The notes below the pieces were generated by a model. That model searched no databases. It had not been told where the DNA came from and saw only the letters and a program-made list of their open reading frames with translations. The position numbers were made by a program, and so were the translations under genes. A stretch of DNA of 64,000 nucleotides from Ramlibacter pallidus (GTDB lineage Bacteria > Pseudomonadota > Gammaproteobacteria > Burkholderiales > Burkholderiaceae_C), in the NCBI RefSeq assembly GCF_015070875.1, contig NZ_JADDIV010000004.1, forward strand, positions 1-64,000. Direction: 5' to 3'. Shown here piece after piece: positions 24,667-40,956 of this stretch (position 1 is the first letter of the stretch; each line of letters begins with the position of its first letter).

Positions 24667-25407
24667 ATGCAAGGCCCCTTCCTCGAACCCCTGCGGCCCG
24701 GCGACGGGCCGTATTCGTTGCGCACGCTCACGCTGCCGCCGGCACGCGAGATCCTCGTGCTGGCGCCGCACCCGGACGACTTCGACGCGATCGCGCTCAC
24801 GCTGCGGCACCTGCAGGCGCAGGGTCATGCCCTGCACGTCGCGGTGCTGACCCGCGGGACCGGCGGCGTGGAGACCGGCTTCGAAGGAGCGCGCGACGAT
24901 GCGGAGAAGGCGGCCTTGCGCGAGGCCGAACAGCGCGAGAGCTGCGCGCTGTTCGGGCTGCCGCCGGACCGCCTGCAGTTCCTGCGCCTGTGGGAAGGGA
25001 CCGACGGCGGCCACGCCCGGCTGCTCGCCTGGATGGCGGAGCGGAAGGCGGCGCACCTGCTGTTCCTGCCGCACGGCAACGACAGCAACCGAACGCACCG
25101 GCGCACGTTCGAGGCCGCGCGTGCCGTGGCCGCGGATCTCGGGCTGCATGCGTGGGCCTGCCTGAACCAGGATGCGAAGACGGTGGCGATGCGCGTCGAC
25201 CTGTATCTCGGCTTCGGCGAGGAAGAGGCCGCGTGGAAGGCTCGCCTGCTGCGCTGCCACCGCTCGCAGCAGGAGCGCAACCTGCGCACGCGCGGCCAAG
25301 GCTTCGATGCCCGGGTGCTGGAAGTGAACCGGCAAGCCGCGCGTTCGCTGGCCATCGACGCGCCCTACGCCGAGGCGTTCGAGCTGCTGCCGGCCGCGCA
25401 GGGCTAG
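24667..25407 (+). CDS. PIG-L family deacetylase
   Basis: A 246-residue zinc-dependent LmbE/PIG-L-type deacetylase, a family that removes N-acetyl groups from sugars such as GlcNAc derivatives. The metal motif APHPDDFD is near residue 35 (His, Asp, Asp), a second histidine lies in LPHGNDSNRTHR near residue 140, and VLTRGTGGVE follows the first strand. ATG 24667 starts 11 nt after the orphan atpE stop, so it may share its transcript. The substrate is unknown; it could act on cell-surface sugar. Confidence 0.9.
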   Translation: MQGPFLEPLRPGDGPYSLRTLTLPPAREILVLAPHPDDFDAIALTLRHLQAQGHALHVAVLTRGTGGVETGFEGARDDAEKAALREAEQRESCALFGLPPDRLQFLRLWEGTDGGHARLLAWMAERKAAHLLFLPHGNDSNRTHRRTFEAARAVAADLGLHAWACLNQDAKTVAMRVDLYLGFGEEEAAWKARLLRCHRSQQERNLRTRGQGFDARVLEVNRQAARSLAIDAPYAEAFELLPAAQG

Positions 25408-25417
25408 GTCACCGGCT

Positions 25418-25894
25418 TCAGAACCACCGCACGACGCCGGACTGCTCCGCGTTCTGCGGGTTCGAACCGGCGTCGCGCACGCGCTGCATCGCTTCGTTCG
25501 CCTCCAGGCCGAGCGCCTTCAGCACGCAGGCGGCCACCGTGCCGGTGCGCCCGATGCCGGCGGCGCAGTGCAGCAGCACGCGGTCGCCCTGGCGGACGCC
25601 CTGCGCGAGCGCTTCGACTTCGCGCCGGAAGCCCGCCGGATCGTCGGGCACGCCGAAGTTGCGCATCGGCAGCTGCAGCCACCGGAACGGCAGCCGGCCG
25701 CCCGCGACGGCGGCGTGGTATTCGGGCGAGAGCTCCTGCATCTCGGGGCGCGGCGTGAGGCACACGACCACCGACAGTTCGCACCCCTGGGCCTGCTGCT
25801 GGAAGCTGCCCCAGGACGTGAAGCGTCCCGGCATGGGGCCGAGCCAGAGCTGGCCGGGCAGGTCGGAAGGCAGGCGGACGCGACGAAGGGACAT
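25418..25894 (-). CDS. Dual-specificity/tyrosine phosphatase-like protein
   Basis: A 158-residue protein with the cysteine phosphatase P-loop HCAAGIGRTGTV (C-x5-R) near residue 109 and an aspartate-containing loop before it (NFGVPDDPAGF), the layout of small DSP/PTP enzymes. It is probably cytoplasmic; no signal peptide is seen. It converges on the PIG-L gene with a 10-nt gap. The substrate is not predictable. Confidence 0.88.
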   Translation of the reverse strand: MSLRRVRLPSDLPGQLWLGPMPGRFTSWGSFQQQAQGCELSVVVCLTPRPEMQELSPEYHAAVAGGRLPFRWLQLPMRNFGVPDDPAGFRREVEALAQGVRQGDRVLLHCAAGIGRTGTVAACVLKALGLEANEAMQRVRDAGSNPQNAEQSGVVRWF

Positions 25895-25936: not shown

Positions 25937-27976
25937 TCAGCGGGGCAGCGGGTACCAGAAGGCCGGGCTGCGGGAAATCTCCACGCCGCGCGGCGCCAGG
26001 GCCCACAGCTCGAGCACGGAGATCGTGCTGCCCTGCGCGTACTGGTTCACGCCGGTGGCGTTGTCGCAGTGGGTGTCACCGACGCTGAGGGTGGTGCAGG
26101 TGATCAGCGCCTTGCGGGCGGACTGGGGCACCGTCACCCGGTCGTCGAAGGCCGGTCCGCGCAGCGGGCCGGAGCCGTCGGGGTCGGGCCCGCGGCCGTA
26201 CACGGAGATGCTGGTGGGGGCCGCCGCGCCGGCGGGAACCGTCCAGAAGTCACCGCCGCCGGCGACGCTCAGGTCCGCCGTGTTGGGTGCCGACGCGCTG
26301 GGCGGGCCGAACAGGGCGACCCCGTAGGTCGACGTGTCGGCGCGGATCTCGTCCTTCGCCTGCGGGGTCAGGTCGGCCATCGGCATGAGCGCGGCTTCCG
26401 CCAGCGTCGGCGCGCGGGAGATCGTGCGGTGGTGCTGGACCACGTTGGCCTGCGCGGCGTCGGCATGGAAGAACTCCAGCTTCCAGGTGCCTTGCTCCGG
26501 CACGGCCTTGATGCGGTCCTCGGTGTAGGCCGGCGCGGCCCAGTTGAACCCCGTCTCGAAGTCGGAGGGCGCGCCCGGCTGCGAGGCCGACTTGAAGCGG
26601 CCCGCCAGCATCAGCACGCTGGAGTTGGACAGGCTGCCGTCCCCCCGCACCGCGGCCAGCTCCGTGCGGCCGGCCAGCGGCTTGAAGGTGAACTTCTCGC
26701 CGTTGGGCGCGGTGACCTCGACCTTGCTGAACACGGGCGTGCCGGACACGACCTGGTTGGCGATCCACACGTTGTAGCCGACCCCGAGGTAGCTGGCCTG
26801 CGCCTGGTTCAGGAACTCGCGGTCCACCACCCACGGCCGCACGCGGGCGTTGTAGGCGTACTGGTTGCCGACCAGCTTCAGCGTGCCGCCGGCAGTGCGG
26901 GCGACCAGGGTGTCGTGCGTGACGGCGCCGGCGGCGTCGCGGCTGCGGTAGCTGAAGACGACGTCGGCCTCGGCGTTGTTGCGCAGGAATTCCAGCTGGC
27001 CGTTGTCGAACACCACGCCCGTCGCGCCGCGGCGGAACAGGCCCGCGAAGGCGCCGTTGTTGTTCGCATCGCGCCCCACGCGGAAACCGTTGTTCAGGAA
27101 GTTGGCAGGGTCGTCACCCACGAACAGCGTGCGGCAGGCCGGGGCGACGACGTCGGCGGCGGTCCCGGTGACGTTGGTGGAGCTGGAGGTCGCGCCGTTC
27201 ACGCGCTGCTCGAGCGGCACCGCATAGCACGCGGTCAGGCGCGTGGTCAGGTCCGCGATCATCTGCGCGATGCCCACCGGGGGCAGGGTGCCGGGCGCGA
27301 TGTCCGGCAGCGGCGCGGGCAGCTCGCCGTTGCTCGTGAACGGCAGCGTCACGGGATCGTCGCTCGCCACGCGCACGGCGATCTCGATGTTGGAGAAGGT
27401 CCCGGAAGGCCGGATGCTGACGCTCAGCGAGTCCAGCACGCGGTCGTGGCCGGTGCCGTCCGCGCTGAAGGTGCCCGTCAACGGGTCCACCGGGTTGCCC
27501 ACGGCGTCCACCAGGGGCTGGAGGACGGCGACCAGCTCCTCGACTTCCTTCGCCAGGCGCTCGGGGGTGACCTGCGAAGGGTCGGTGCGCAGGCTGCGCG
27601 GGTCGCCGTCGGGCGACAGCCGCGCGGCGATCACCGTCGTGAGCGGCGTGATGTTCAGGCGGGTGCTGCGCGTTTCGGCGAAGGTGCTCACCAGCGTCAC
27701 GTCGTCGCGCACGGCTTCCAGCACCAGAGGGGCCGGTGTGTCGGCCGGGATGGTGAAGGTGTAGCTCCCGTCGGCGCCGACGTCCGCGGTCTGCACCGCA
27801 CGGCCGTTTCGGTCGTAGAGGGTGACGACCGCGCCGGCGAACGGCGCACCGGTGGCCGCGATGCCGGCGATGTCGGCCTTTTCGGGTGCCGGCGGCGTGT
27901 CGCCGCCCCCGCCTCCGCCCCCGCATGCGGCCAGCGCGCATGCGAGGAACGCTGTTCCAAGCAACCTGCAGATCAT
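25937..27976 (-). CDS. Large lipoprotein, function unknown
   Basis: A 679-residue exported protein with a lipobox LAACGGGG (cysteine at residue 18) followed by poly-Gly, as in many Burkholderiales lipoproteins. Residues about 35-100 resemble a carboxypeptidase-regulatory or Ig-like fold (AGIAATGAPFAGAVVTLYDRNG, GADGSYTFTIP). The rest has no motif I recognise and contains several cysteines that could pair (ACYAV, PACRTL, ITCTTL, DTHCDN). ATG 27976 has AAAGGGG upstream. Localisation to the outer membrane is inferred from the lipobox. It lies between the phosphatase gene and the LuxR-type regulator. Confidence 0.85.
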   Translation of the reverse strand: MICRLLGTAFLACALAACGGGGGGGDTPPAPEKADIAGIAATGAPFAGAVVTLYDRNGRAVQTADVGADGSYTFTIPADTPAPLVLEAVRDDVTLVSTFAETRSTRLNITPLTTVIAARLSPDGDPRSLRTDPSQVTPERLAKEVEELVAVLQPLVDAVGNPVDPLTGTFSADGTGHDRVLDSLSVSIRPSGTFSNIEIAVRVASDDPVTLPFTSNGELPAPLPDIAPGTLPPVGIAQMIADLTTRLTACYAVPLEQRVNGATSSSTNVTGTAADVVAPACRTLFVGDDPANFLNNGFRVGRDANNNGAFAGLFRRGATGVVFDNGQLEFLRNNAEADVVFSYRSRDAAGAVTHDTLVARTAGGTLKLVGNQYAYNARVRPWVVDREFLNQAQASYLGVGYNVWIANQVVSGTPVFSKVEVTAPNGEKFTFKPLAGRTELAAVRGDGSLSNSSVLMLAGRFKSASQPGAPSDFETGFNWAAPAYTEDRIKAVPEQGTWKLEFFHADAAQANVVQHHRTISRAPTLAEAALMPMADLTPQAKDEIRADTSTYGVALFGPPSASAPNTADLSVAGGGDFWTVPAGAAAPTSISVYGRGPDPDGSGPLRGPAFDDRVTVPQSARKALITCTTLSVGDTHCDNATGVNQYAQGSTISVLELWALAPRGVEISRSPAFWYPLPR

Positions 27977-28156: not shown

Positions 28157-28831
28157 TCAGTCCCGCAGCGCGCCCACCAGCGGGGGCAGCCGCGCGATCA
28201 TGTCCAGGAGTTCGGCGATGCTCGCGGCGCCCGTCTTGTCGCGGATGCGCGCGATGTGCGTGCGCACCGTCGAAAGCGCCACCCCCTGCCGCTGGGCGAT
28301 CGTGCCCGGGCGCAGGCCGGTGGACAGCGCCAGCAGCACCGCGGCTTCCGCCTGCGTCAGGCCGTACCAGCGCGCGAAGCCGTCGGCCGAAAGCGTTTCG
28401 CACGCGGCGCTCTTGCCCAGGACGACAAGCGACAGGGGGCCGGCGCCCCCTCCGGCCATCGGCACCACGGCGAGCATCCACCGGCGCTCGCCGTGCTGGA
28501 AGGTGAGCATGCGGCGCAGGCCCTGGTCGCGGCTCGCGGCGAGTGCCGCCGCCAGCAGGGCGTCGTCCTCCGCGCTGCGCGCGTACAGGTGGCCGCCCGC
28601 CAGCCGCAGCGGGTGGCCGCCGGCGAGCTCGCGGCGTGCCGCGTGGTTCAGGTGCGCGACCGAGAAGGCGGAAGACAGAAGGATGACGCCGTAGTCGATC
28701 TCGTCGAGCACCCGCGTGATGCAGTGGGCCAGCGGCGCCGGGTCCGCCGTGTCGGGCGCGTCGGGGAATGCGGGGTGCGGGTAGCGCCGCGATCCGGGTG
28801 CGGCCGGAGGGGAGAAGAGGGTGCCGTCCAC
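28157..28831 (-). CDS. LuxR-type transcriptional regulator
   Basis: A 224-residue regulator. The C-terminal LuxR helix-turn-helix reads GLTQAEAAVLLALSTGL then TIAQRQGVALSTVRTHIARI (about residues 150-205). The N-terminal part resembles a PAS-like sensor domain (VLDEIDYGVILLSSAFSVAHLN) rather than an autoinducer domain or receiver, so it probably senses a small molecule or redox state. The start is GTG 28831. It is divergent from the response-regulator gene, with a 9-bp inverted repeat in the 205-bp gap. Confidence 0.85.
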   Translation of the reverse strand: MDGTLFSPPAAPGSRRYPHPAFPDAPDTADPAPLAHCITRVLDEIDYGVILLSSAFSVAHLNHAARRELAGGHPLRLAGGHLYARSAEDDALLAAALAASRDQGLRRMLTFQHGERRWMLAVVPMAGGGAGPLSLVVLGKSAACETLSADGFARWYGLTQAEAAVLLALSTGLRPGTIAQRQGVALSTVRTHIARIRDKTGAASIAELLDMIARLPPLVGALRD

Positions 28832-28962
28832 TGCCTTGCCTTCGTTGTTTCGGGTGGCGCAAGGCTAGGCGAGGCAGGCCGCGCGCGGCTCGTCCAGGCG
28901 CACGAACAGCGCCGGGCCGGACGGCGGGCCGGCCATCGGCCGGGAGGCGGGCGCGCACTCAT

Positions 28963-28995
28963 ACGAACGGCCGATGCCGCGCACTTGCCGTTCGT
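28963..28995. promoter_or_regulatory. Inverted repeat, candidate operator of the divergent regulators
   Basis: ACGAACGGC (28963-28971) and GCCGTTCGT (28987-28995) are perfect reverse complements, 9 bp each, with centres 24 bp apart. They sit 42 nt before the response-regulator ATG. LuxR/NarL proteins bind such dyads, so this may be the target of either neighbour. Confidence 0.5.
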
Positions 28996-29036
28996 GGACC
29001 GCGCCGGGAGAATGCCCCCGAACAACGGAAGTCCGC

Positions 29037-29696
29037 ATGAAACTGCTCCTGGTCGACGACCATGCCCTGTTCCGCACCGGCATGGACCTCCTGCTGCACC
29101 ACCTGCATCCGGAGATGGACGTCCTCCACGCCTCCTCCGTCGTCGAAGCGCTGGCCACGATCCGCCGCGAGCCGGCCATCGACCTCGTCCTGCTCGATCT
29201 CCACATGCCGGGCATGACCGGCCTCGACGCGCTGCTCCACATGCGGCAGCACGAGACGCCGCCCATCGTGGTGCTGTCCGGCAGCGAGGACCTGCAGGTC
29301 GTGTGGAAGGCCATCGACGCCGGCGCCATGGGCTTCATCCAGAAGCAATCGGATGCCGAGACGCTGCGTGCGGCGCTGAGCGTCGTCCTGAACGGCGGCA
29401 TCACCATCCCGCAGGTCTGCCTGACGGAGACGGGGCGGCGGGCGGCGCACGCGCGCGACCTCACGCCGAAGCAGCGCATGCAGGAGCTCGGCGTGTCCGA
29501 GCGGCAGATGCAGGTTCTGGCGAAACTCGCCTACGGCAAGCCGAACAAGGTGATCGCGCGCGAGCTGGGGATCAGCGAAGCCACCGTCAAGACGCACCTG
29601 TCGGCCGTCTTCGACGCCCTGAAGGTCAGCAACCGCACGCAGGCGGTTTTCGCGCTGGCGCGGCTGGAGATCGGCCCGCAGGAGCTCGAGGCTTGA
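29037..29696 (+). CDS. NarL/FixJ-type response regulator
   Basis: A 219-residue two-component regulator. The receiver has LLLVDDHALFRTGMD at the N-terminus, phospho-acceptor D54 in VLLDLHMPGMTGLD, and the conserved lysine in GFIQKQS. The LuxR-type HTH (GVSERQMQVLAKL, then NKVIARELGISEATVKTHLS) occupies about residues 150-210. ATG 29037 has CGGAAG upstream. Its stop overlaps the start of the hybrid kinase, so the pair is co-translated. Likely targets are the divergent promoter region and the giant enzyme gene downstream. Confidence 0.92.
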   Translation: MKLLLVDDHALFRTGMDLLLHHLHPEMDVLHASSVVEALATIRREPAIDLVLLDLHMPGMTGLDALLHMRQHETPPIVVLSGSEDLQVVWKAIDAGAMGFIQKQSDAETLRAALSVVLNGGITIPQVCLTETGRRAAHARDLTPKQRMQELGVSERQMQVLAKLAYGKPNKVIARELGISEATVKTHLSAVFDALKVSNRTQAVFALARLEIGPQELEA

Positions 29697-31468
29697 GCGG
29701 CGGCGCCGCCGCCGCCGGCGTCCCGCCCGAGGCCGACGTCCCGCTGCTGCGCGAGCGCGTGCGCCTGCTCGCCGAACAGTCGTCCGGCGCCGCGGTGTCC
29801 ACCTTCGTCGGCGCCATCCTGATTGGCGTCGTCCTTGCCTCCGAGGCGTCGCGCTGGCAGGTGGCGATCTGGATCGCGGCGTACCTCGGGCCGGCGATCC
29901 TGCGCATCCGCTTCAGCCGCCGCGTGCTGCGCAACGAGGTCGCGCCCGATGCCGCGGCATTGCGGCGCTACCTGCACTTCGCGCTGTTCAACGGCGCCTG
30001 GACCGGCGCGCTGCCGCTCGCCTTCTTCGCCGCGCTGTCGGTGGAAGCGCGCGCCGCGCTCACCGTGATGTCGCTGCTGTCGCTCACCGCCGGGGCCGCG
30101 ACCTTCGCCTCGTACCGCACCGGCTACCTGTGCGTGCTCGCGCTGGCGCTGCCGCCCCTGGTCTTCGACTGGGCGGTGCTGGGCGACGGCCCGTCCTGGG
30201 TGGTCGTCGTCACGCTGGTCGTGTTCGGCGGCCTGATGGTCAGGCTGTCCCGCCACCTGGGCGAGGTCTTCGAGCGTTCCGTGGAGATCCGCTTCGAGCG
30301 CGAACGCGTGGTGGAGCAGCTGCGCCGCGAGAAGGCGCACACCGAGCTCGCGCGCCAGAAGGCGGAAGAAGCCAGCCGCGCGAAGTCGCGTTTCCTCGCC
30401 AGCGCCAGCCACGACCTGCGCCAGCCGGTGCACGCGCTGGGCCTCTTCAGCAGCGTGCTCGGCGCCACCGCGCAGACGCAGCAGCACCGCACGATCGCCA
30501 GCAACATCGCCGCGGTCAGCGACATCCTCAAGAAGCTGCTGGACAACCTGCTCGACATCTCCCGCCTCGACGCCGGCATCGTGTCGGTGGCGGTGCAGCC
30601 CGTGGCCGTCAAGCCTTTCGTCGAACGGCTCGCCGCCGAGACGGCGGGCGTGGTCTCCAACCGCCCGATCGAGGTGATGGCCACGGCGGCCGACGTTTCC
30701 GCCGTGTTCGATCCGGTGCACGTCGAACGCTGCCTGCGCAACCTGCTGGACAACGCCTGCAAGTTCACGGTGCAGGGCTGCATCACCCTCGGGGCGGCGC
30801 GCGAGCACGACCGCCTCGTGTTCAGCGTCTCCGACACGGGGCAGGGCATTCCGGCGGAGCAGCTCGGGCTGGTCTTCGAGGAGTTCTACCAGGTCGGCAA
30901 CACCGAGCGCGACCAGAGCAAGGGCCTCGGCCTCGGCCTGTCCATCGTGGCGCGGCTCGCCGCCCTGATGGGCGGCGAAGTGCACTTGCAGTCGACGCCC
31001 GGGCAGGGCAGCACGTTCGCCCTGAGCCTGCCGTTCACGGCCGCGGACGAGGTCGGCGTGGCGGGCGAGGAGCAGCTTCCGGGCAGTGTCGACCTGCAGG
31101 GGCGGCGGGTGCTGGTCATCGACGACGAGGCGCTGGTGCGCGCCTCCATGCGCGAACAGCTGCGCGCCTGGGGCGCCGAGGTCGACGAGGCCGACGGCCT
31201 GGTGCAGGCCCAGGGCGTGCTGGCGCAGCAGGCGGAGGGCGAATGCCAGCTGTGCCTGTGCGACCTGCGGCTGCGCGACGGGGAGGACGGCATCCGCACC
31301 GCGCAGGCGCTGCGCGTGGCGCATCGCGGGCTGCCTGTCATCCTCATCACTGGGGACACGGCGCCGGCCCGGATCGAGCAGGCTGCGCGATCGGGCCTGC
31401 CGCTGCTGCACAAGCCCGTGCGCCCGGCCGTCCTGGCACGGGAGATCGGGGTTGCATTGAGGAGGTGA
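29693..31468 (+). CDS. Membrane hybrid histidine kinase with C-terminal receiver
   Basis: A 591-residue sensor kinase. Residues about 30-190 hold several hydrophobic segments (membrane sensor), then a coiled-coil-like RERVVEQLRREKAHTELARQ, the H-box SASHDLRQPVHAL with H240, the N-box NLLDNACKF, G-boxes SDTGQGIP and GLGLGLSIV (G411), and a C-terminal receiver with DD 477-478 and D524. The start is inferred as TTG 29693, which overlaps the regulator stop by 4 nt and has GGAG 8 nt upstream; a GTG at 29759 is the alternative. The stop lies inside the Shine-Dalgarno of the next gene. The signal sensed is unknown. Confidence 0.9.
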   Translation: MSGGAAAAGVPPEADVPLLRERVRLLAEQSSGAAVSTFVGAILIGVVLASEASRWQVAIWIAAYLGPAILRIRFSRRVLRNEVAPDAAALRRYLHFALFNGAWTGALPLAFFAALSVEARAALTVMSLLSLTAGAATFASYRTGYLCVLALALPPLVFDWAVLGDGPSWVVVVTLVVFGGLMVRLSRHLGEVFERSVEIRFERERVVEQLRREKAHTELARQKAEEASRAKSRFLASASHDLRQPVHALGLFSSVLGATAQTQQHRTIASNIAAVSDILKKLLDNLLDISRLDAGIVSVAVQPVAVKPFVERLAAETAGVVSNRPIEVMATAADVSAVFDPVHVERCLRNLLDNACKFTVQGCITLGAAREHDRLVFSVSDTGQGIPAEQLGLVFEEFYQVGNTERDQSKGLGLGLSIVARLAALMGGEVHLQSTPGQGSTFALSLPFTAADEVGVAGEEQLPGSVDLQGRRVLVIDDEALVRASMREQLRAWGAEVDEADGLVQAQGVLAQQAEGECQLCLCDLRLRDGEDGIRTAQALRVAHRGLPVILITGDTAPARIEQAARSGLPLLHKPVRPAVLAREIGVALRR

Positions 31469-31470
31469 GC

Positions 31471-34400
31471 ATGTCCGGGTCGATCTCGCAGCCGTTTTCC
31501 GACTGGTTCGAGGAACAGGGCGTTCGCGGCCAGGACCCCGTCCATGTCGACGCCGTCGTGATCGGTTCGGGCTACGGCGGCGCGGTGGCCGCGCTGCGCC
31601 TGGCCGAGGAGGGACGCTCCGTGCTCGTGCTCGAACGCGGCTCCGAGTTCCTCCCCGGCGACTTCCCGAACGACTTCGGGCAACTGCCGAAGTTCGTCCG
31701 CGCCAACGGCTTCGACGGCACGATGGGCAGCGTGGGTGGCCTCTTCGATTTCCGCATCGGCCAGGGCATGGTCTCGCTGGTGGCCAACGGCCTCGGCGGC
31801 GGCAGCCTGATCAACGCGGGCGTGATGATGCGGCCCGACGCCGACGTGTTCGCCCAGCCCGGATGGCCGGCGGAGATCCGCCATGGCCTGGACGACCGCC
31901 TGTGCACCCCGGGCGGCGAGCGGCTGGGCCTGCGCGCGGCCTTCGCCCGGGCCCAGGGCATGCTGCAGGGGGAGATCTTCCGCGACCCGCCCGCGCCGGG
32001 CGGTGGGCCGCCACCCGCTTTCTCCGTGCTGCCCAAGGCCGAGACCCTGCACCGCATCGGCGGCGCGATGCAGCGCGGCACCGCGGACGTGCGCGGCAAG
32101 CCGGACCGGGAGGTGGACTTCCGCGCCCGGCGCGCCCGCCTCACCATCGCCATGGACAAGTGCCGGCATTGCGGCGACTGCTTCACCGGCTGCAACGTCG
32201 ACGGGGCGAAGAAGACGCTCACCACGAACTACCTGGCGGATGCGCGGGCGCGCGGCGCGGCCCTGGTGACGTCCGCCTTCGTCTACGCGATCGTGCCGGT
32301 CCTGGCCAAGGGGAAGGACGAGGTGAAGGAGTGGATGCTGAGCGTCCTGCCCGCGGAGAAGGAACGCCACGCGCTGCGCCGCAGCCAGGCCGTCTTCGGC
32401 GAAGGGCGCAAGCTGCGGGCCCGCCTCGTGGTGGTCGCGGCCGGAACCTTCGGCAGCACGGAACTGCTGGCGCGGTCGCGGCAGATCCATTCCTTCTTCT
32501 CCCTGTCGCCGGCGCTGGGCACGCGCCTGAGCGGCAACGGCGACAGCCTCAGCGTGCTGGCGGACCGGCGCGAGCCCGTGCACGGCGTCGGCGCCGGCGC
32601 ATCGCCGTCCGCGGCCCCCGTGGGCCCGACCATCACGTCCGTCCTCGACCTGCGCGGACGCCGCGAGATCGACCAGCGGGTGGTGGTGCAGGATGGGGCG
32701 GCGCCCGGCGCGCTGGCGGGCGTGTACCGCGAGTTGCTCGCCACCGCGTGGAGCCTGCGCTTCCTCGCGCGGGCGCCGCGGGCGAACGCAGGGGCGGAGC
32801 CGCTGGCGGCCACGCGCAAGCTGTCCGAACACACCCAGATGCTCCTCGTGATGGGCCACGACGGTTCGCGCGGCCGGCTGGTGTGGCTGCCCGAGATGGA
32901 CGGCGTGGTGCCGTACTGGGAACACCCCGAACGCGAGCCGACGTTCCGGCGCCAGCAGCAGCTGTTCGACGCCGCGCAGGACGGCGACGGCGTGCACCTG
33001 CACCCCCCGACCTGGCAGATGATCCGCCCCGACCTGTCGGCCGCGGCGGATGGCGAGCTGCCGCCGGCGACGCTGATGAGCGTGCACCCGCTGGGCGGCT
33101 GCCCGATGGGTGACCGCTTCGAGGACGGCGTGGTCGACCACGCGGGCCGCGTCTGGCGCGCACCGAACCGGCATTGGGACAACCTCTACGTCCTGGACGG
33201 CTCCATCGTCCCCACCTCGCTCGGCTGCAATCCGCTCTGGACGATCACCGCGCTGGCGGAGCGCGCGATGGCGTACCGCCGCCGCGGCGGCGCCTTGAAG
33301 ATCCCCGCCCCGGGTGCCCGCCCCGCAGGGGGGACCCGCAGGCCGCAGGCGGTCGCGCGCGCTTTCGAGGCGCCCATGCGCATCGACCTGATCGAGCGGC
33401 TCGAGGCGAAGAGCCTGCGTTTGCGCGGACGCCTGCGCGCGGCCCTCGGCGTCGACGAAGTGGAGAGCGACCTCGCGCTGTCCATCGGGTCGGCGGACTG
33501 GTCCGCGGTGTGGGATGCCCCGGGGCACCGCATGGAAGCGATCGAGGGGACGCTGCGCCTGGTCGAAAAGACGGCCCGGAAGCCTCGCCGCCTGGCGTAC
33601 GCGGTGGACGGCGGCCACGTCGAACTGTTCAGCCGCGACCCGCGTTTCGCGAACTTGCGGCGCGTCCTGCGCCTGCTGCCGGTGGCACTCACGTGGCTGG
33701 TCCTGCGCGGCTGGCGCGATTGGCGCGAGGCCAGGCGCCGGCCGGGCGAGACGTCGCTGTCGTGGAAGGCCGGCGTCCTGGTCGCGTGGCTGGCGACCGA
33801 GGTTCGCTACGTCCGCTACGACCTGCACCTCGCGCCGGTGGGCAGGGCGAAAGGGGCGCCCGCCGACCTGTGGCTGCGGGGCACGAAGAAGATCACCTAC
33901 GCCGCTTCGTGGACCGAGATCGCCTGCCACGCGTGGCAGCGTCTCACGGGTGCCCGGCGCGCCGGCGTCCCGGTGCGTCCCGGCGACTTGCGCGCGAGCC
34001 TGCTGGACCAGCTGACCTGCCCCGACCTGCGCCTGGACACGCGGCGCCGGCCGGCGTGGTGGCCGCGCGCCTGCAGCGACGCCGCCGGCCGCTTCGACTT
34101 CGACCTGCAGCAGGCGCTGCAGCGCACGCCGCTGCGCGTCCTCGGCGGCGGCGACAGCACCTCGGCCGCCTTCTCCGCGTTCGCCTATCCGGCTTTCGTC
34201 GCGCGCTACCTGCTGCAGTCCCGCCTGCTGGAGTTCCGCCTGCCGACGTACTCGGACGACCCCGCGCGCGACACCGCCTCCGACCTCGATGTCGGGCTGC
34301 GCGTGGCCCCGGGCCGGCCCCTGCTGCAGCCGGCCGAGTTCGTGCTGCGCGTGCCGGCGGGTCTCTCTTCCAGCGACGACGGCACCGAGCGCCCCGCGCG

Positions 34401-37320
34401 CGACCGGCTGCAACTGCGCCTGTGGCGCTATGCGCGGCCCGGCGGGGCGCCGGACTGCCAGCAGGGCAGCTGGTGCGGCCAGCCGGTGCGGCGCGCGAAG
34501 TCCGTGCTGCTCACGCACGCCTTCGACATGTCGGGCCTCTCCTTCACCTTCAAGACCACGCAGCGCAACCTGGCGGAACACTTCTACGCCCAGGGCTGGG
34601 AGGTCTGGATCCTCGACTCGCGCATGAGCTCGCGCACGCTCGCCGGGATCGAGCCCTGCACGGTGGACCAGCTGGGCCTCATCGACGCGCCCGCCGCGGT
34701 CGACTTCATGCTGCGCACCCTCGACAAGGAACTCGCCGTGCATGGCGCGGCGCCGCTGCAGGTCTACGGCTTCGGGCAATGCATGGGTGCTGCCTCCTTC
34801 CTGATCGGGCTGCTGGGCGGAAAGCTCTCGCACGGCATCCCGGCCGCGGCGGCGTTCGCCGACGCCCGCGGCGACCTCCCCCTCATGCCGAAGCTGGCCG
34901 GCCTGGTGACGTCGCAGACCCATCCCTTCATCGTGGGCTCGCGCGCCGCGCAATCGAAGATGTGGGTGCCGGCCTTCGTGCGCGACCTCGCGGGGCGGAC
35001 GATGCTGCCGCTGGGCGTGCGCGGTCCGGTGGCTTCCGTCGTGGAGTCCCTGGCGGACCGGCTGTTCGCGGCACTGCCGGTGCCGGACGGGGAGCGCTGT
35101 CCCGAAGAGGGCCGGGCCCACCACGCCGACGACGACTGCGCGACCTGCCGCCGCATCCGCTTCCTGCTGGGCGGCATGTACCTCCACCGCAACCTGAACC
35201 TGGCGACGCACCGCGAACTGCCGCGGTTCTTCGGCGCGGGCAGCATCCGGCTGTTCGCGCAGGGCGCGAAGTTCTTCCGCTACGAGCGCCTGTGCTCGGA
35301 AGACGGCTTCAACGTCTTCGCGACCGACGATGCGATGCGGCGCCACCTGGCCATGCCCGTGCGCTTCGTGCACGGTGCCCACAACGACCTGTTCGACGCG
35401 GAAAGCGCGCGGCGCTCGGCCGATGAATACGCACGGTTGCATCCGGGCTGGGCGCAGCGCTACGGCGTGGGCGGCACCGGCCGGGTGTGCGACATCCTCG
35501 AAGACTACGGCCACGTCGACGTGCTGCTCGGCGAGCACGCGGGGGTGCGCCGGCCCGGCGAGGCTGCGTGCGCCTACGAACGCATGGCGGCATTGCTGGA
35601 GGCGGAATGGGCCATGCCGCATGCGCACCCGCTGCCGCCCCCGGCGGTGCCGCCGGCGCAGATCCGCGTGCACTTCCCGAAGTCGGGGCCCTTCCTCGGC
35701 CCGCTGCTGGACGTGGGGGGCAAGCGCACGGCCGGCATCTCCTTCGTCGTGGACGACATGGAGGCAGTCCCCCACGGCGCGGTCGCGCTGGTGCAGGAGT
35801 GGGACCGTCCCGCCACCGCGCGGGCCGTGCCGCTCGCGATCCGCAGCATGCCCGTGGCCGTCCCCGCGCGCGACGGGAGCTACCAGGTGCCGGCGCGCGA
35901 CCCGCTGGTCGGCGTGCGCGTCGCCCACGGGCGCATCGACGTGTCCGGCTTCACGCCGGGGCGGCACCTGCTGGTGAAGTGCTTCGCGTACGCCTTCGAC
36001 GGGCCGGCGCTGGCCCTGCCGCCGGTGGCCGTGCTGGAGCAGGCGGTGGCGGCGGCCGAACAGTGGGAGCGCGACCGGCGTGCCGAGTCCGAGCGCCCCT
36101 TCCCGCCGACGCTGTCGCAGCGCCTGCGCTTCCCGCGCCACCGCTTCACCATGAAGGCCAGGCTGTCGCGGCACGTGCTCGCGCAGCCGCAGCCGGGCGA
36201 TCCCGTGCGCGTCGCACTCGGGTGTTGCCGCTACCCCGGGTTCCCTTTCGAGCGCGAGCGCGCGGACGAAGCCCTGTTCCGGCTGGAGCAACTCGTGCGC
36301 GGCCGGCGCGGGCCGGCACGGCCGGAGCTGCTGTTCATGCTCGGGGACCAGATCTATGCCGACCGCACCGCGGGACTGGTCGATGCACTGAGTCCGGTGG
36401 AGCGCTTCCTGTTCCGCCACCAGGAGGCGTTCACGACCCGCGCCGCGCGCCGCCTGTTCTCCAGCGTGCCCACCCTCTGCGTGCCGGACGACCACGAGTT
36501 CGTGGACGCCTACCCGCTCGGGCGGCCGCTGCTGCGGCGCGCGTCGCCGCGCACGCGGGCCGAGAAGCGGCAGGCCCGCCGCCGCGAACGGGCGGCGCGC
36601 GTCTTCGCGGCCGAGACCCTGTCCGCCTACCAGCTGGCCCAGCTGCCCGATACCGCGCGGCGGTTCGGCTACTGCGAGGTCGAACGCGGGGGCGTGCGCT
36701 TCTTCGTCCTCGATACGCGCACCTGGCGCCGCCGGCAGCGCAACGGCGAAGTCCGCACGCTGCACTGGATGGCGCGGCACGCCTTCGCACGTTGGGTGCA
36801 GCGGTGCGCCGCCGACGGCGTCCTCGCTTGCCTGGTGACGGGCAGCGTCGTCGCGCCGGGCCTGCACCCCGGCGCCGACCCGGCCAACGCGGGCCCGCAG
36901 GACACGATGCAGGCCGCACCGGCGGAGCGCGCATGGCTGCTCGGCCAGCTGGCCCAATGGGTGCCGGGGCGTTTCGTCCTGGTCTCGGGCGATTACCACG
37001 TCAGCTTCGCCGGGGAGATCTGCCTGGCGGGCCGGCGCATCGGCGCGGCGATCGTGGCGCCACCGCTGCACGCGCCGCTGGTGTACGCCAACGCGAGGCC
37101 GGAAGACCTCTTCCTGCCGGAGCCGGTCCCCACCCCAGCGGGCTTGCTGAGCGTGCAGGCGCTGCCTGGCGCGCCCCCGCGCGACGGGTCCGGCTACGGC
37201 GCGCTGGAGTTCGTCCCCGTCGGCACCGGCTGGGAGGTGCGTTTCGGCGGCGAACTCATCGACCTGGAGCAGGGCACCGGCTGGCAGCAGGTGCAATGGC
37301 CGGCGATTACCTTGCCGTAG
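31471..37320 (+). CDS. Giant fusion: GMC oxidoreductase, alpha/beta hydrolase and PhoD-like phosphatase
   Basis: A single 1,949-residue open frame. Residues 26-605 are a GMC flavoprotein of the cholesterol/long-chain alcohol oxidase type: FAD motif GSGYGG 32-37, GLGGGSLINAG near 108, a four-cysteine motif C231-x2-C234-x2-C237-x3-C241, the HPLGGC active-site histidine H539 and N587 in CNPLWTITALAE. A linker with one hydrophobic stretch (about 730-750) follows. Residues about 1011-1375 are an alpha/beta hydrolase with nucleophile elbow GQCMG (C1104, not Ser) and likely D1306 and H1348. Residues about 1560-1920 resemble PhoD: GCCRYPG, LGDQIYAD (D1626), PDDHEF and SGDYH (H1843). No signal peptide is visible. 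The ATG follows a near-perfect GGAGGTGA. Confidence 0.88.
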   Translation: MSGSISQPFSDWFEEQGVRGQDPVHVDAVVIGSGYGGAVAALRLAEEGRSVLVLERGSEFLPGDFPNDFGQLPKFVRANGFDGTMGSVGGLFDFRIGQGMVSLVANGLGGGSLINAGVMMRPDADVFAQPGWPAEIRHGLDDRLCTPGGERLGLRAAFARAQGMLQGEIFRDPPAPGGGPPPAFSVLPKAETLHRIGGAMQRGTADVRGKPDREVDFRARRARLTIAMDKCRHCGDCFTGCNVDGAKKTLTTNYLADARARGAALVTSAFVYAIVPVLAKGKDEVKEWMLSVLPAEKERHALRRSQAVFGEGRKLRARLVVVAAGTFGSTELLARSRQIHSFFSLSPALGTRLSGNGDSLSVLADRREPVHGVGAGASPSAAPVGPTITSVLDLRGRREIDQRVVVQDGAAPGALAGVYRELLATAWSLRFLARAPRANAGAEPLAATRKLSEHTQMLLVMGHDGSRGRLVWLPEMDGVVPYWEHPEREPTFRRQQQLFDAAQDGDGVHLHPPTWQMIRPDLSAAADGELPPATLMSVHPLGGCPMGDRFEDGVVDHAGRVWRAPNRHWDNLYVLDGSIVPTSLGCNPLWTITALAERAMAYRRRGGALKIPAPGARPAGGTRRPQAVARAFEAPMRIDLIERLEAKSLRLRGRLRAALGVDEVESDLALSIGSADWSAVWDAPGHRMEAIEGTLRLVEKTARKPRRLAYAVDGGHVELFSRDPRFANLRRVLRLLPVALTWLVLRGWRDWREARRRPGETSLSWKAGVLVAWLATEVRYVRYDLHLAPVGRAKGAPADLWLRGTKKITYAASWTEIACHAWQRLTGARRAGVPVRPGDLRASLLDQLTCPDLRLDTRRRPAWWPRACSDAAGRFDFDLQQALQRTPLRVLGGGDSTSAAFSAFAYPAFVARYLLQSRLLEFRLPTYSDDPARDTASDLDVGLRVAPGRPLLQPAEFVLRVPAGLSSSDDGTERPARDRLQLRLWRYARPGGAPDCQQGSWCGQPVRRAKSVLLTHAFDMSGLSFTFKTTQRNLAEHFYAQGWEVWILDSRMSSRTLAGIEPCTVDQLGLIDAPAAVDFMLRTLDKELAVHGAAPLQVYGFGQCMGAASFLIGLLGGKLSHGIPAAAAFADARGDLPLMPKLAGLVTSQTHPFIVGSRAAQSKMWVPAFVRDLAGRTMLPLGVRGPVASVVESLADRLFAALPVPDGERCPEEGRAHHADDDCATCRRIRFLLGGMYLHRNLNLATHRELPRFFGAGSIRLFAQGAKFFRYERLCSEDGFNVFATDDAMRRHLAMPVRFVHGAHNDLFDAESARRSADEYARLHPGWAQRYGVGGTGRVCDILEDYGHVDVLLGEHAGVRRPGEAACAYERMAALLEAEWAMPHAHPLPPPAVPPAQIRVHFPKSGPFLGPLLDVGGKRTAGISFVVDDMEAVPHGAVALVQEWDRPATARAVPLAIRSMPVAVPARDGSYQVPARDPLVGVRVAHGRIDVSGFTPGRHLLVKCFAYAFDGPALALPPVAVLEQAVAAAEQWERDRRAESERPFPPTLSQRLRFPRHRFTMKARLSRHVLAQPQPGDPVRVALGCCRYPGFPFERERADEALFRLEQLVRGRRGPARPELLFMLGDQIYADRTAGLVDALSPVERFLFRHQEAFTTRAARRLFSSVPTLCVPDDHEFVDAYPLGRPLLRRASPRTRAEKRQARRRERAARVFAAETLSAYQLAQLPDTARRFGYCEVERGGVRFFVLDTRTWRRRQRNGEVRTLHWMARHAFARWVQRCAADGVLACLVTGSVVAPGLHPGADPANAGPQDTMQAAPAERAWLLGQLAQWVPGRFVLVSGDYHVSFAGEICLAGRRIGAAIVAPPLHAPLVYANARPEDLFLPEPVPTPAGLLSVQALPGAPPRDGSGYGALEFVPVGTGWEVRFGGELIDLEQGTGWQQVQWPAITLP

Positions 37321-37335
37321 CGGGGCCCGCGCCCT

Positions 37336-38613
37336 TCACGGCCTGAAGCTGCTGCGCTGCTGCGTCACGGCGAGCTCCGATACCGGCGCCGCGCGGTGGC
37401 CCCATGCGCTGCGCAGGTACGTGACGACGGCCGCGACATCCGCATCGGACAGCGTGGTGGCGAAGGGCGGCATGCCGAAGGGCCGCGGGTTGCCGCGGGT
37501 GGCGGGTGCGTAGCCGCCGTGCAGCACGACCTGCACCAGGTTCGTCGTCTCGGGCATCGTGACCGCGCGGTTGCCGGCCAGCCGCGGGTAGGCGCCCTTC
37601 ACGCCTTCGCCCTGCGCGCCATGGCAAGTGGCGCAGTGCTGTTCGTACAGCTTGCCTCCCCGCTGCAGCACGTCGGGCGCCGCCCGCGGCGTTTCGCGCG
37701 GGTCGCTGTCGCCGGGCGCCGGAGGCAAGGCCTTCAGGTACACCGCCATGGCCCGCAGGTCGGCCGGCTCGAGGTACTGGGTGCTGTGCAGCACGACCTC
37801 GGCCATCGGGCCGGAGACGCTTGCGCGCGGGGCGGTGCCCGTGCCGAGCAGCTGCACGATGTCCTGCAGCGGCCAGTCGGCCACGCCGGCCTCCGTGGCG
37901 GATGCCAGGGACGGGGCATACCAGTTCTGCATCGGGATCAGGCCGCCGGACAGGTCCATCACGTCGCGCGTGCCGCCCAGCGCGTTGCGCGCGGTGTGGC
38001 AGGCGCCGCAGTGGCCCAGGCCCTGCACGAGGTAGGCGCCGCGATTCCATTCGGGCGTGCGCGACGGGTCCTCGGCGAAGGTCTCGGGCTTGAAGTAGAG
38101 GATGCGCCAGACCGCCAGCGCGGCCTGCGTGTTGTACGGCCAGCGCAGGCGGTGCGCGCGGTTCGGCTTGTTGATGGGGGGAAGGCTGCGCAGGTAGTCG
38201 AACAGCGCGTCGGAATCGGCGGCCGTGACGCGCGTCGTGTGCGTGTACGGGAAGGCCGGGTAGAGCAGCCTGCCGTCGCGGGAGCGCCCCTCGTGCAGCG
38301 CCCGCCGGAAGTGCCCCGCCGACCAACGGCCCAGGCCGGTCTCGGCATCGGGGGTGAGGTTGCTGGCGTACACCGTGCCGAACGGCGTCTCCAGCGGCCG
38401 GCCGCCGGCGTACGCCGCACCGCCGCGCTCGGTGTGGCACAGCATGCAGTTGCCGGCACGGGCGAGGTAGGCGCCGCGCGCCACCTGTTCCGGCGCGGGC
38501 GGGGTGCGTGGCGCGGTGTCCAGCACGCGCTGCGCCCCCTGGAAGCTGTAGAGCCAGACGATGCCGGCCAGCACGGCCACCAGAACCAGCAGGAACAGCA
38601 GGAAGCGCTTCAT
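37336..38613 (-). CDS. Triheme c-type cytochrome (GMC dehydrogenase partner type)
   Basis: A 425-residue protein with an N-terminal membrane anchor or signal (FLLFLLVLVAVLAGIVWLY) and three heme c sites: C56-M-L-C-H60, C202-G-A-C-H206 and C327-A-T-C-H331. This is the layout of the cytochrome subunits of alcohol, gluconate, sorbitol and fructose dehydrogenases, which pass electrons from the dehydrogenase to quinone in the cytoplasmic membrane, facing the periplasm. It overlaps the upstream diheme gene by 4 nt and converges on the GMC fusion gene 15 nt away, so partnership with the GMC domain is a reasonable inference. Confidence 0.9.
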   Translation of the reverse strand: MKRFLLFLLVLVAVLAGIVWLYSFQGAQRVLDTAPRTPPAPEQVARGAYLARAGNCMLCHTERGGAAYAGGRPLETPFGTVYASNLTPDAETGLGRWSAGHFRRALHEGRSRDGRLLYPAFPYTHTTRVTAADSDALFDYLRSLPPINKPNRAHRLRWPYNTQAALAVWRILYFKPETFAEDPSRTPEWNRGAYLVQGLGHCGACHTARNALGGTRDVMDLSGGLIPMQNWYAPSLASATEAGVADWPLQDIVQLLGTGTAPRASVSGPMAEVVLHSTQYLEPADLRAMAVYLKALPPAPGDSDPRETPRAAPDVLQRGGKLYEQHCATCHGAQGEGVKGAYPRLAGNRAVTMPETTNLVQVVLHGGYAPATRGNPRPFGMPPFATTLSDADVAAVVTYLRSAWGHRAAPVSELAVTQQRSSFRP

Positions 38614-39386
38614 CGGCCCGTCCCCGCCACCGGCGGCTGGGCGGAGCCGCAGCGCATCGGCGGCGGCTCCGGTGCCGCCGCCGGCTGCGCCGTGCGGCCC
38701 TTGCGGCGCGGTGCCGCCTTCGCCGGGACCGGGCCGGCCGCCACCGGCTTCGCATCCTTCGGCAGCGGTTCGGACGCGAGCCACGCGGTCACCGCGGACA
38801 GGTCTTCGGGCGCCAGCCGGCGCGCGATCTCGCCCATGCAGTCGGGCGGCAGCGCCCGGCGCTGCCCCGTGCGCCACGCGCCGAGCTGCGCGTTCAGGTA
38901 GTCGCGCGGCAACCCGAGCAGCCCCGGCGTGTTCGGCTGCACGCCGGTGAGCGTCTTGCCGTGGCAGGCCGCGCACGCCGGGATGCGGCGCTCCGCGTCG
39001 CCCTGCAGCGCGAGTTCGCGTCCGCGCTGCAGGACTTCGGCGGGAAAGGCAGCCGCGTGCGGCGCAGGGTAGGGGAGGTCGAGACGCGCGAAGTGCTGCG
39101 CCATCTCGTAAAGGTATTCGTCGGACAGCGTGTCCAGCAGTCCGGCCATCAACCCGTAGTGCCGCCGGCCTTCGCGGAAATTGAGCAGCTGGTTGTACAG
39201 GTAGCCGGCCGGCTTGCCGGCGATGCGCGGGTAGTAGCCGTCCGGGCCGGCGCGCCCCTCGCGCCCATGGCACACCGTGCACGCGAGGGTGCGCTGCGCC
39301 ATGTCGTCGCGGAACGGGGCGGGCTGCGCCGAGGCCCCCGTGGCGAGCCACAGGGCAAGGGCGAACGAAAGAAGCAGGCCGCGCAT
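38610..39386 (-). CDS. Diheme c-type cytochrome (c4-like)
   Basis: A 258-residue periplasmic protein with a signal peptide (LLLSFALALWLATGASA, cleavage near residue 20) and two heme motifs, C36-T-V-C-H40 and C138-A-A-C-H142, spaced as in cytochrome c4. GYYPRIAGKPAGYLYNQL is a typical c4 segment. The last 45 residues are Pro/Ala-rich and basic, an unusual tail. It is first in a two-gene operon with the triheme cytochrome (ATGA overlap) and may shuttle electrons between it and a terminal oxidase. Confidence 0.9.
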   Translation of the reverse strand: MRGLLLSFALALWLATGASAQPAPFRDDMAQRTLACTVCHGREGRAGPDGYYPRIAGKPAGYLYNQLLNFREGRRHYGLMAGLLDTLSDEYLYEMAQHFARLDLPYPAPHAAAFPAEVLQRGRELALQGDAERRIPACAACHGKTLTGVQPNTPGLLGLPRDYLNAQLGAWRTGQRRALPPDCMGEIARRLAPEDLSAVTAWLASEPLPKDAKPVAAGPVPAKAAPRRKGRTAQPAAAPEPPPMRCGSAQPPVAGTGR

Positions 39387-40038: not shown

Positions 40039-40956
40039 ATGGCCACCAGCCTGCTCGCGCTCCTCGACGACATCGCCACCATCCTCGACGACGTTTCCGT
40101 CCTCACCAAGGTGGCGGCCAAGAAGACGGCGGGCGTGCTCGGCGACGACCTGGCGCTGAACGCGCAGCAGGTCACCGGCGTGCTGGCCGACCGCGAACTG
40201 CCGGTGGTGTGGGCCGTCGCCAAGGGATCGATGGTCAACAAGGCCATCCTCGTCCCCGCGGCGCTGGCCATCAGCGCGATCGCCCCCTGGGCGGTGACGC
40301 CGCTGCTCATGGTCGGGGGCGCCTTCCTCTGCTTCGAAGGCGCCGAGAAGCTGGCGCACAAGTTCCTGCACAGCCGGCAGGAGGACGAGCAGCACCACAA
40401 GGAACTGATCGAGGCAGCCGCCAACCCGCAGGTCGACATGAAGGAGTTCGAGAAGGAAAAGATCAAGGGCGCGGTGCGCACGGACTTCATCCTCTCCGCC
40501 GAGATCATCGTCATCAGCCTCGGCACCGTCGCCGACCAGGACTTCGTCACGCGCGTCGCGGTGCTCGTCGGCATCGCGCTGCTGATGACGGTGGGCGTGT
40601 ACGGGCTGGTGGCCGGTATCGTGAAGCTGGACGACCTGGGGCTGCACCTGACGCGGCGCGCGTCCTCGGCGGCCAAGGCGATCGGCCGCGGCATCCTCCG
40701 CGCCGCGCCGTGGATGATGAAGTTCCTCTCCGTCGCCGGCACCGCGGCGATGTTCCTGGTGGGCGGCAGCATCCTGGAACACGGCATTCCCGCGCTGCAC
40801 CACCTGGCCGAGGGCATCACCTCGGGCGCGGGCGCCTTCAGCGTGCCGGCCGGCATGCTGGTGGATGCGGTGGTTGGCCTTACGGCGGGCGCGATCCTCG
40901 TGGCCCTGTATGCCGCCATCCGCAAGATGCGCGGCAAATCGGCCCTGCCTGCGTGA
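40039..40956 (+). CDS. DUF808 (YedI-like) membrane protein
   Basis: A 305-residue protein that matches DUF808/YedI across its length: SLLALLDDIATILDDVSVLT at the start, KVAAKKTAGVLGDDLA, GAFLCFEGAEKLAHKF, the EKEKIKGAVRTDFILSAEI stretch and about five hydrophobic segments. It is an inner-membrane protein of unknown function that is widespread in proteobacteria. ATG 40039 follows a short AT-rich leader. Confidence 0.92.
   Translation: MATSLLALLDDIATILDDVSVLTKVAAKKTAGVLGDDLALNAQQVTGVLADRELPVVWAVAKGSMVNKAILVPAALAISAIAPWAVTPLLMVGGAFLCFEGAEKLAHKFLHSRQEDEQHHKELIEAAANPQVDMKEFEKEKIKGAVRTDFILSAEIIVISLGTVADQDFVTRVAVLVGIALLMTVGVYGLVAGIVKLDDLGLHLTRRASSAAKAIGRGILRAAPWMMKFLSVAGTAAMFLVGGSILEHGIPALHHLAEGITSGAGAFSVPAGMLVDAVVGLTAGAILVALYAAIRKMRGKSALPA

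Follow-up and report, generated by a model that had tools for sequence, protein, structure and literature searches.

In a 64,000-nucleotide stretch on contig 4 of the 4.31-Mb genome of Ramlibacter pallidus (hereafter the window), a membrane hybrid histidine kinase, a NarL-type response regulator and a giant enzyme of 1949 amino acids constitute a real unit that travels together from genome to genome. Two cytochrome c genes that converge on this unit are chance neighbours of the enzyme, from a different and older gene order. The enzyme is predicted to combine a GMC oxidoreductase domain, an alpha/beta hydrolase domain and a PhoD-like metallophosphoesterase domain. The family seems undescribed in the open-access literature searched, where the titles and abstract openings mentioned neither such a fusion nor the linkage of one to a two-component system. 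We lean, with modest confidence, towards the view that the three genes form a regulated unit whose enzyme acts on a phosphorylated, acylated lipid or lipid-like alcohol and whose electrons bypass the neighbouring cytochromes.

Kinase, regulator and enzyme as a unit

The response regulator (29037-29696, forward strand; an alternative in-frame ATG upstream at 28974 is possible) carries the receiver and GerE domains of the NarL/FixJ type (Response_reg 1.2e-24, GerE 3.2e-17). Its gene overlaps that of the kinase (29693-31468, forward strand) by the four nucleotides TTGA (29693-29696). This overlap requires TTG as start codon of the kinase, and the resulting length is plausible since homologous kinases mostly have 564-605 amino acids. 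The kinase has four hydrophobic segments, as judged by hydropathy, and carries HisKA, HATPase and receiver domains. The ribosome binding site GGAGGTGA (31461-31468, forward strand), read directly from the DNA, ends in the kinase stop codon TGA (31466-31468), and the enzyme gene extends from the ATG at 31471 to 37320 on the forward strand, in a frame with which codon-position G+C agrees. No promoter or terminator was found in a scan upstream of the response regulator. Divergent from the latter lies a LuxR/GerE-type regulator gene without receiver domain (28157-28831, reverse strand; GerE 3.9e-07). A first-pass annotation of this DNA had listed these four genes and the two cytochrome genes, and their positions, the 4-nt overlap and the nucleotides shared by ribosome binding site and kinase stop are all confirmed. 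Kinase and regulator resemble NahK/ErcS'-ErdR two-component systems, which provide their best NCBIfam matches. However, the scores are below the cut-offs, both for the NahK/ErcS hybrid kinase model NF041832 (6e-84; 282 bits versus 400) and for the ErdR-type model (1e-35; 123 bits versus 390), and the kinase match leaves out the N-terminal membrane part, spanning only the kinase core and the receiver.

Two sets of relatives were compared. The first comprises 24 loci, with five two-domain copies of the enzyme and 19 copies that are either three-domain (fused or split) or truncated. The kinase adjoins 18 of the 19 and the regulator is near 16 of them, while neither is beside any of the five two-domain copies; no multihaem gene was found near any of the 19. 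The second set results from scanning a single genome for each species, with patterns including three of the four cysteines described below or the HPLGGC box, and consists of 80 named loci from many phyla, the best 80 of 564. One of these (L147) was dropped because no enzyme gene was obtained. The 24-locus set served to build the profiles for kinase and regulator, and clusters of neighbour genes those for phosphoesterases. Genes were called by a home-made codon-usage caller, with N bases read as A (two each in L122, L159 and L160); the PhoD genes of L046 and L048 escaped it but were confirmed to be present. Most counts are uncorrected for relatedness, and dereplicated values are given where available. 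Homologues were taken as three-domain if the PhoD part is fused or encoded by the next gene (45 of the named loci), and as flanked if at least two genes lie on each side (39 of the 45).

The kinase is located within three genes of 31 of the 39 flanked three-domain homologues, and the regulator is there too in 26. For flanked two-domain loci the figures are 1/15 for each gene, and for flanked GMC-only loci 0/7 for each. Kinase linkage thus differs between three- and two-domain loci (Fisher p 1.2e-6), also after dereplication at 70% identity (25/32 versus 1/10, p 2.1e-4). A multihaem gene, i.e. one with at least two haem motifs, is within four genes of a single one of the 39 (10 motifs, four genes off), compared with 7/15 two-domain and 1/7 GMC-only loci. 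The gene order varies: regulator-kinase-enzyme, kinase-enzyme with a convergent regulator, or a divergent kinase. This variation favours selection over descent from a single shared ancestor. Kinase and enzyme distances are correlated over 47 pairs (r 0.878, a value reached in none of 2000 permutations), a set in which one gene occurs twice (L042 and L124) and to whose r species relatedness contributes. In two genomes with two copies each (L040 and L042; L122 and L159), the copies belong to different clades in both the kinase and the enzyme tree. Chance adjacency of kinase and enzyme is ruled out by the co-occurrence counts and the correlated distances.

The six genes had been proposed to form a complete module. 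This holds for kinase, regulator and enzyme, and sometimes for the LuxR gene, whereas the cytochromes do not belong to it; enzyme homologues consistently lie without them (1/39 and 0/19 in the two sets). Of 114 loci searched, six contain relatives of the LuxR gene, an occasional fourth partner (phmmer E 2e-41 to 5e-7). In L123, L126, L137 and L153 these relatives diverge from the regulator; the matches in L120 and L128 are weaker.

Contig 1 of the window's own genome carries a second copy of the enzyme (L050, 8158-13481), split in two overlapping genes for a GMC-hydrolase protein of 1264 amino acids and a PhoD protein of 510 amino acids, with its own kinase and regulator and a second kinase nearby. 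In the alphaproteobacterial loci L139, L140, L145, L150 and L151, a protein of 1299-1342 amino acids, of AAA/cyclase type in the one scanned, is encoded upstream of the enzyme and replaces the two-component system. The enzyme matched 86 plasmid records, none covering more than 80% of it; among the 15 matches listed, the names given are 'alpha/beta fold hydrolase' or 'GMC oxidoreductase'. A role in anti-phage defence was also considered and rejected: PADLOC-DB gave no match for the enzyme, and weak generic ones for the kinase, the regulator and the LuxR gene.

Domains and location of the enzyme

Two AlphaFold models of the enzyme were obtained, with mean predicted local distance difference test scores of 86.8 and 82.0 and predicted template modelling scores of 0.88 and 0.86. 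Residues ~1-605 (31471-33285, forward strand) are predicted to form a cholesterol-oxidase-like GMC domain by Pfam (GMC_N/GMC_C), PDB profile, Foldseek and VIA. Cholesterol oxidase ranks first by PDB sequence profile and by Foldseek (E 4e-28), and its comparison by VIA gave Z 34 with a root-mean-square deviation (rmsd) of 2.6-2.8 Å over ~450 residues at 26-28% identity. With 148.2 bits, the score for the cholesterol oxidase family model NF058674 is below its cut-off of 850. The modelled fold also agrees with that of membrane GMC dehydrogenases (Foldseek 8jej_A, E 1.6e-20; VIA Z 34.7-35.0, rmsd 3.4-3.6 Å). Cholesterol oxidases of Streptomyces and Brevibacterium have in common with the window enzyme the GMC fold and two aligned residues, His in HPLGGC and Asn in GxNP, which have a catalytic role in cholesterol oxidase. 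The differences are that the cholesterol oxidases lack the hydrolase, the phosphoesterase and, in the chains aligned, the cysteine loop.

This loop, CX2CX2CX3C (Cys231, Cys234, Cys237 and Cys241; 32161-32193, forward strand), is a predicted iron-sulfur (Fe-S) site, as suggested by its invariance and spacing. The four cysteines are invariant in 19/19 sequences of a set picked without any cysteine pattern, and are kept in 80/80 of the wider set, which was partly selected by the scan pattern. No cysteine is present in the aligned loop of the three cholesterol oxidase chains compared. Some members show weak matches with Pfam Fer4 families (Fer4_6 in 8/44). The consulted part of a study on the flavin adenine dinucleotide (FAD)-dependent glucose dehydrogenase (FAD-GDH) of Burkholderia cepacia (PMC6719666) gives Cys212, Cys218 and Cys222 as ligands of a 3Fe-4S cluster located 12-13 Å from the flavin, and describes this enzyme as exported with a hitchhiker subunit and working with a multihaem subunit. 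The spacings of 6 and 4 between these ligands, as given there, are those of Cys231, Cys237 and Cys241 in the window enzyme. A CxxCGxCx4C motif aligns with the window loop in four GMC proteins associated with hitchhiker subunits (three of the genus, one of the order); it is complete in L200, L202 and L203 and lacks the second cysteine in L201. We can predict that the loop is of the Fe-S type found in membrane GMC dehydrogenases, and the fourth cysteine (Cys234) would permit a 4Fe-4S cluster. FAD-GDH and the fructose dehydrogenase of Gluconobacter share the GMC fold with the window enzyme, and FAD-GDH also the C-x5-C-x3-C spacing of its ligands. Counterparts of the hitchhiker and multihaem subunits of FAD-GDH were, however, not found for the window enzyme, and the hitchhiker family PF13618 has no match in the window's own genome.

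A beta-rich middle domain (residues ~636-960; 33376-34350, forward strand) follows in the AlphaFold model. No Pfam family specific to it was found in a scan of 44 members, and no fold was listed for it in structure searches, in which it was searched within the larger model, so that it could still have a known fold. Next comes a putative acid-lipase-like alpha/beta hydrolase domain (residues ~975-1385; 34393-35625, forward strand), with a Foldseek match to lysosomal acid lipase (E 3e-13). At E 0.01, Abhydrolase_1 matches 23 of the 32 members and not the window's own sequence. The nucleophile position is occupied by cysteine (Cys1104 in the window enzyme) in 67 of the 68 sequences with a residue there; His1348 was also noted. 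Lysosomal and gastric acid lipases share the fold and differ by their serine nucleophile. A cysteine nucleophile, within a GxCxG box, is used by the polyhydroxyalkanoate (PHA) synthase PhaC. The window domain would have this feature in common with PhaC, whose cut-off was not reached.

The C-terminal part is a predicted PhoD-like metallophosphoesterase domain (36208-37317, forward strand; PhoD 1.8e-12; Foldseek 2yeq, E 3e-15). This identification, like that of the hydrolase part preceding it, goes beyond the first-pass annotation. The PhoD-like phosphatase model PF09423 scores 47.5 bits for a cut-off of 27, and PhoD is matched in 32/32 members. A phmmer search of the PDB with just the PhoD part gave nothing at E 1; the profile search did match. 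In the part consulted of a study on PhoD (PMC4223295), changes at Cys-180, Asp-207, Asp-265, Asp-266, Asn-271, Asn-272 and Asp-436 are reported to abolish or strongly reduce activity. Residues of the PhoD metal-ligand type are found in the window enzyme and are conserved (Cys1586, Asp1626, Tyr1629, Asp1673, Asp1674, Asp1841 and His1843), the DDHE stretch and its surroundings being aligned with PhoD and the remaining ligands being matched by motif. Compared with Bacillus subtilis PhoD, which has the same metallophosphoesterase fold and an aligned DDHE, the window domain is fused, has no visible signal peptide and carries an alanine at the Asn-272 position.

Residues 1-24 of the enzyme, ahead of the flavin-binding strand, are polar, and hydropathy revealed no N-terminal signal-like segment in the three-domain proteins checked. 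Hydropathy is a coarse test, since the signal of the diheme cytochrome escapes it too, and a weak twin-arginine translocation signal in a relative is possible. The lone early hit, at residues 28-46 in L135, coincides with the position of the flavin-binding strand. An export signal of the PhoD type is not seen either, the PhoD domain being internal in the enzyme. One or two hydrophobic segments are present within the middle domain in L036-L040 and L115, and none in the window enzyme. The simplest reading is that the enzyme is cytoplasmic, possibly membrane-associated. If so, periplasmic cytochromes could not reach it.

Proposed function and alternatives

Relatives of the enzyme with the activities on separate genes provide a first indication of its function. 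Among the named loci without PhoD part, a metallophosphoesterase gene lies no more than four genes away in 19/34 (some loci are cut by a contig end). In flanked loci without fused PhoD, a phosphoesterase gene, either calcineurin-like or PhoD, is present within the same distance in 14/21 (7/13 dereplicated). These nearby phosphoesterases were checked by Pfam in L156, L158, L160, L166 and L178. Some bacteroidete and Nostoc-type clusters also hold a separate hydrolase, a patatin-type gene is found in six loci of bacteroidetes and cyanobacteria (confirmed by Pfam in one), and an acetoacetate-decarboxylase-like protein is encoded in the L180 cluster, among those scanned. The three activities thus tend to co-locate, whether fused or separate, and this is the ground for proposing a phosphorylated, acylated alcohol as substrate. 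That the alcohol is lipid-like is a guess, suggested by the lipase-, patatin- and cholesterol-oxidase-like character of the proteins.

The preferred reading can be laid out as follows. A signal sensed by the membrane hybrid kinase and its NarL-type regulator would most likely switch on the regulator-kinase-enzyme transcript. The PhoD-like domain would then remove or cleave a phosphate ester, the hydrolase domain with its cysteine nucleophile would cut or transfer an acyl group, and the FAD domain would oxidise the freed alcohol. Electrons would pass via a four-cysteine Fe-S cluster to an acceptor other than the neighbouring cytochrome pair. A signal-controlled oxidation pathway had been suggested from the first. 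Its oxidative character is likely, in agreement with the Fe-S-type loop, and the cytochromes have to be removed from it.

The fusion may serve as a Rosetta stone: it suggests that the GMC oxidoreductase, alpha/beta hydrolase and metallophosphoesterase genes found as separate neighbours elsewhere, e.g. in Bacteroidota and Pseudomonas, share one pathway, and offers access to it through a single regulated gene. If its Fe-S wire is real, as predicted, and no exported partner takes part, this cholesterol-oxidase-like flavoenzyme would represent a new electron route for GMC enzymes. More tentatively, and with some doubt of our own, we propose a widespread undescribed trifunctional family, in which one phosphorylated substrate, similar to a membrane lipid, is processed in sequence by an Fe-S-wired GMC dehydrogenase, a cysteine acyl hydrolase or transferase and a phosphoesterase. 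The family's own two-component system would be a lipid or redox sensor and, as the activities are on separate neighbouring genes in other phyla, the fusion would reveal an unknown conserved lipid pathway.

Several observations weigh against the preferred reading. The hydrolase domain has cysteine for serine, and no conserved acid at the expected place. The PhoD domain of the window enzyme has alanine where the calcium ligand Asn-272 stands in the aligned PhoD, so that this domain may be weakened; 14 sequences with a PhoD domain have Asn (10), Ala (2) or Gly (2) at this position. By VIA, cholesterol oxidase is slightly outranked by choline oxidase (Z 35.5, rmsd 3.2 Å) and by fructose dehydrogenase (Z 35.0, rmsd 3.6 Å), so the fold alone names no substrate and is no pointer to a sterol. 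Eight of the 39 flanked three-domain homologues are without such a kinase. In four of these eight (L139, L140, L145 and L150), the enzyme is instead adjoined by the protein of 1299-1342 amino acids, of one family, mentioned above. The window kinase itself departs from the clade of its enzyme. The window enzyme groups with L110 and L036-L040, and the window regulator has its best matches among the regulators of this enzyme clade, clade I (L036 47%, L040 46%). The kinase does not group with them; its nearest relative found in the genus, at 72% identity, is a lone kinase of another genome (L216, 9209-10969, genome G011), with no regulator or enzyme beside it. The window kinase was probably swapped in. 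Finally, ten further kinase loci were inspected. The enzyme is present in three of them (L219, partial, L220 and L225), and four (L218, L221, L222 and L223) hold kinase and regulator only. In L224 (9367-11842), kinase and regulator are kept ~110 bp apart with no enzyme between them, a natural loss of the enzyme, barring an error in the draft assembly. The two others are the lone kinase of L216 and L217, which stops at a contig end. The enzyme-free loci indicate that the kinase-regulator pair is not tied to the enzyme everywhere.

Among the alternatives, it is somewhat unlikely that the substrate is a xenobiotic, a polyester or a signal molecule, on which the three domains would act in another order. 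The separate hydrolase of a Nostoc cluster weakly matches the class III PHA synthase PhaC (E 6.8e-5, below cut-off), and no characterised enzyme of this family was found in the literature searched. The patatin, acid-lipase and cholesterol-oxidase relatives point instead to lipids, by resemblance only.

That the GMC domain could be an oxygen-using oxidase like cholesterol oxidase, with a structural cysteine loop and peroxide as second product, appears unlikely to us. Cholesterol oxidase is indeed first by sequence profile and by Foldseek. Moreover, a gene of the RoxA-like di-haem cytochrome c peroxidase family follows the two-domain enzyme in eight loci (one scanned) of Pseudomonas, Chromobacterium and Bryobacterales, e.g. 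L158 (13569-15446), which amounts to 7/15 flanked two-domain loci and 2/10 dereplicated groups. However, the four invariant cysteines are absent from the aligned cholesterol oxidases, and their spacing corresponds to that of the ligands in a known 3Fe-4S enzyme.

We also judge it improbable that kinase and regulator serve a general regulation and merely neighbour the enzyme, with their signal and main targets elsewhere. Pairs of this family do occur without the enzyme, and the best relative of the window kinase in the genus stands alone. Yet the co-occurrence is strong across varied gene orders, and the kinase and enzyme clades are co-inherited, even between two copies in one genome.

The cytochrome pair and the probable inserted block

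The enzyme gene faces the genes of a membrane-anchored triheme cytochrome c (37336-38613, reverse strand; three CXXCH) and a diheme cytochrome c (38610-39386, reverse strand; two CXXCH). As first described, these two genes form a convergent operon; they share a 4-nt overlap, and 15 nt separate the stop codons of the enzyme and triheme genes. Both are outside the unit, the triheme gene being a core gene of the genus and the diheme gene its partner. At E 1e-60, a triheme homologue is present in 54/59 genus genomes and the enzyme in 13/60, a threshold that misses some enzyme copies (in G011, at 2e-57, and in G019, G349 and G350). Twenty triheme loci, mostly from the top of the genus match list, were fetched. 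In 20/20 the diheme-triheme pair is intact and adjacent and is flanked by a DUF808 gene (at 40039 in the window), and in none of them is the enzyme beside the pair. The six-gene set therefore does not travel together, contrary to what the first-pass annotation led to expect. On the side opposite to DUF808, the immediate neighbour of the triheme gene is in 18/20 loci a phosphatase-like gene, which in the window (25418-25894) is 11.4 kb away from the cytochrome pair. For this reason, the segment 25895-37335, missing from the orthologous cytochrome loci and holding the kinase-regulator-enzyme unit, is most simply explained as an insertion; it is probably an inserted block carrying the unit. The convergent layout of enzyme and cytochromes would then result from the landing site of the insertion.

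Cytochromes as partners of the enzyme are ruled out by the genus-wide presence of the triheme gene, the 20/20 synteny and the 1/39 multihaem neighbours. A dehydrogenase feeding electrons to the convergent triheme and diheme cytochromes is accordingly very improbable: the 15-nt proximity and the Fe-S-type loop common to hitchhiker-type GMC dehydrogenases, one of which (L203) adjoins a triheme gene, speak for it, but the counts above, the lack of a visible signal segment and the absence of a hitchhiker subunit from the genome speak against it.

Two other genes of this region are absent from the 20 cytochrome loci. One, inside the inserted block (25937-27976), encodes a 679-amino-acid protein with a lipoprotein-like N-terminus and weak immunoglobulin-like matches, and the other (24667-25407) a PIG-L type deacetylase without homologue in these otherwise syntenic loci. 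In one of the 20 (L103), a kinase of the unit's family is located ~6 kb from the cytochrome pair.

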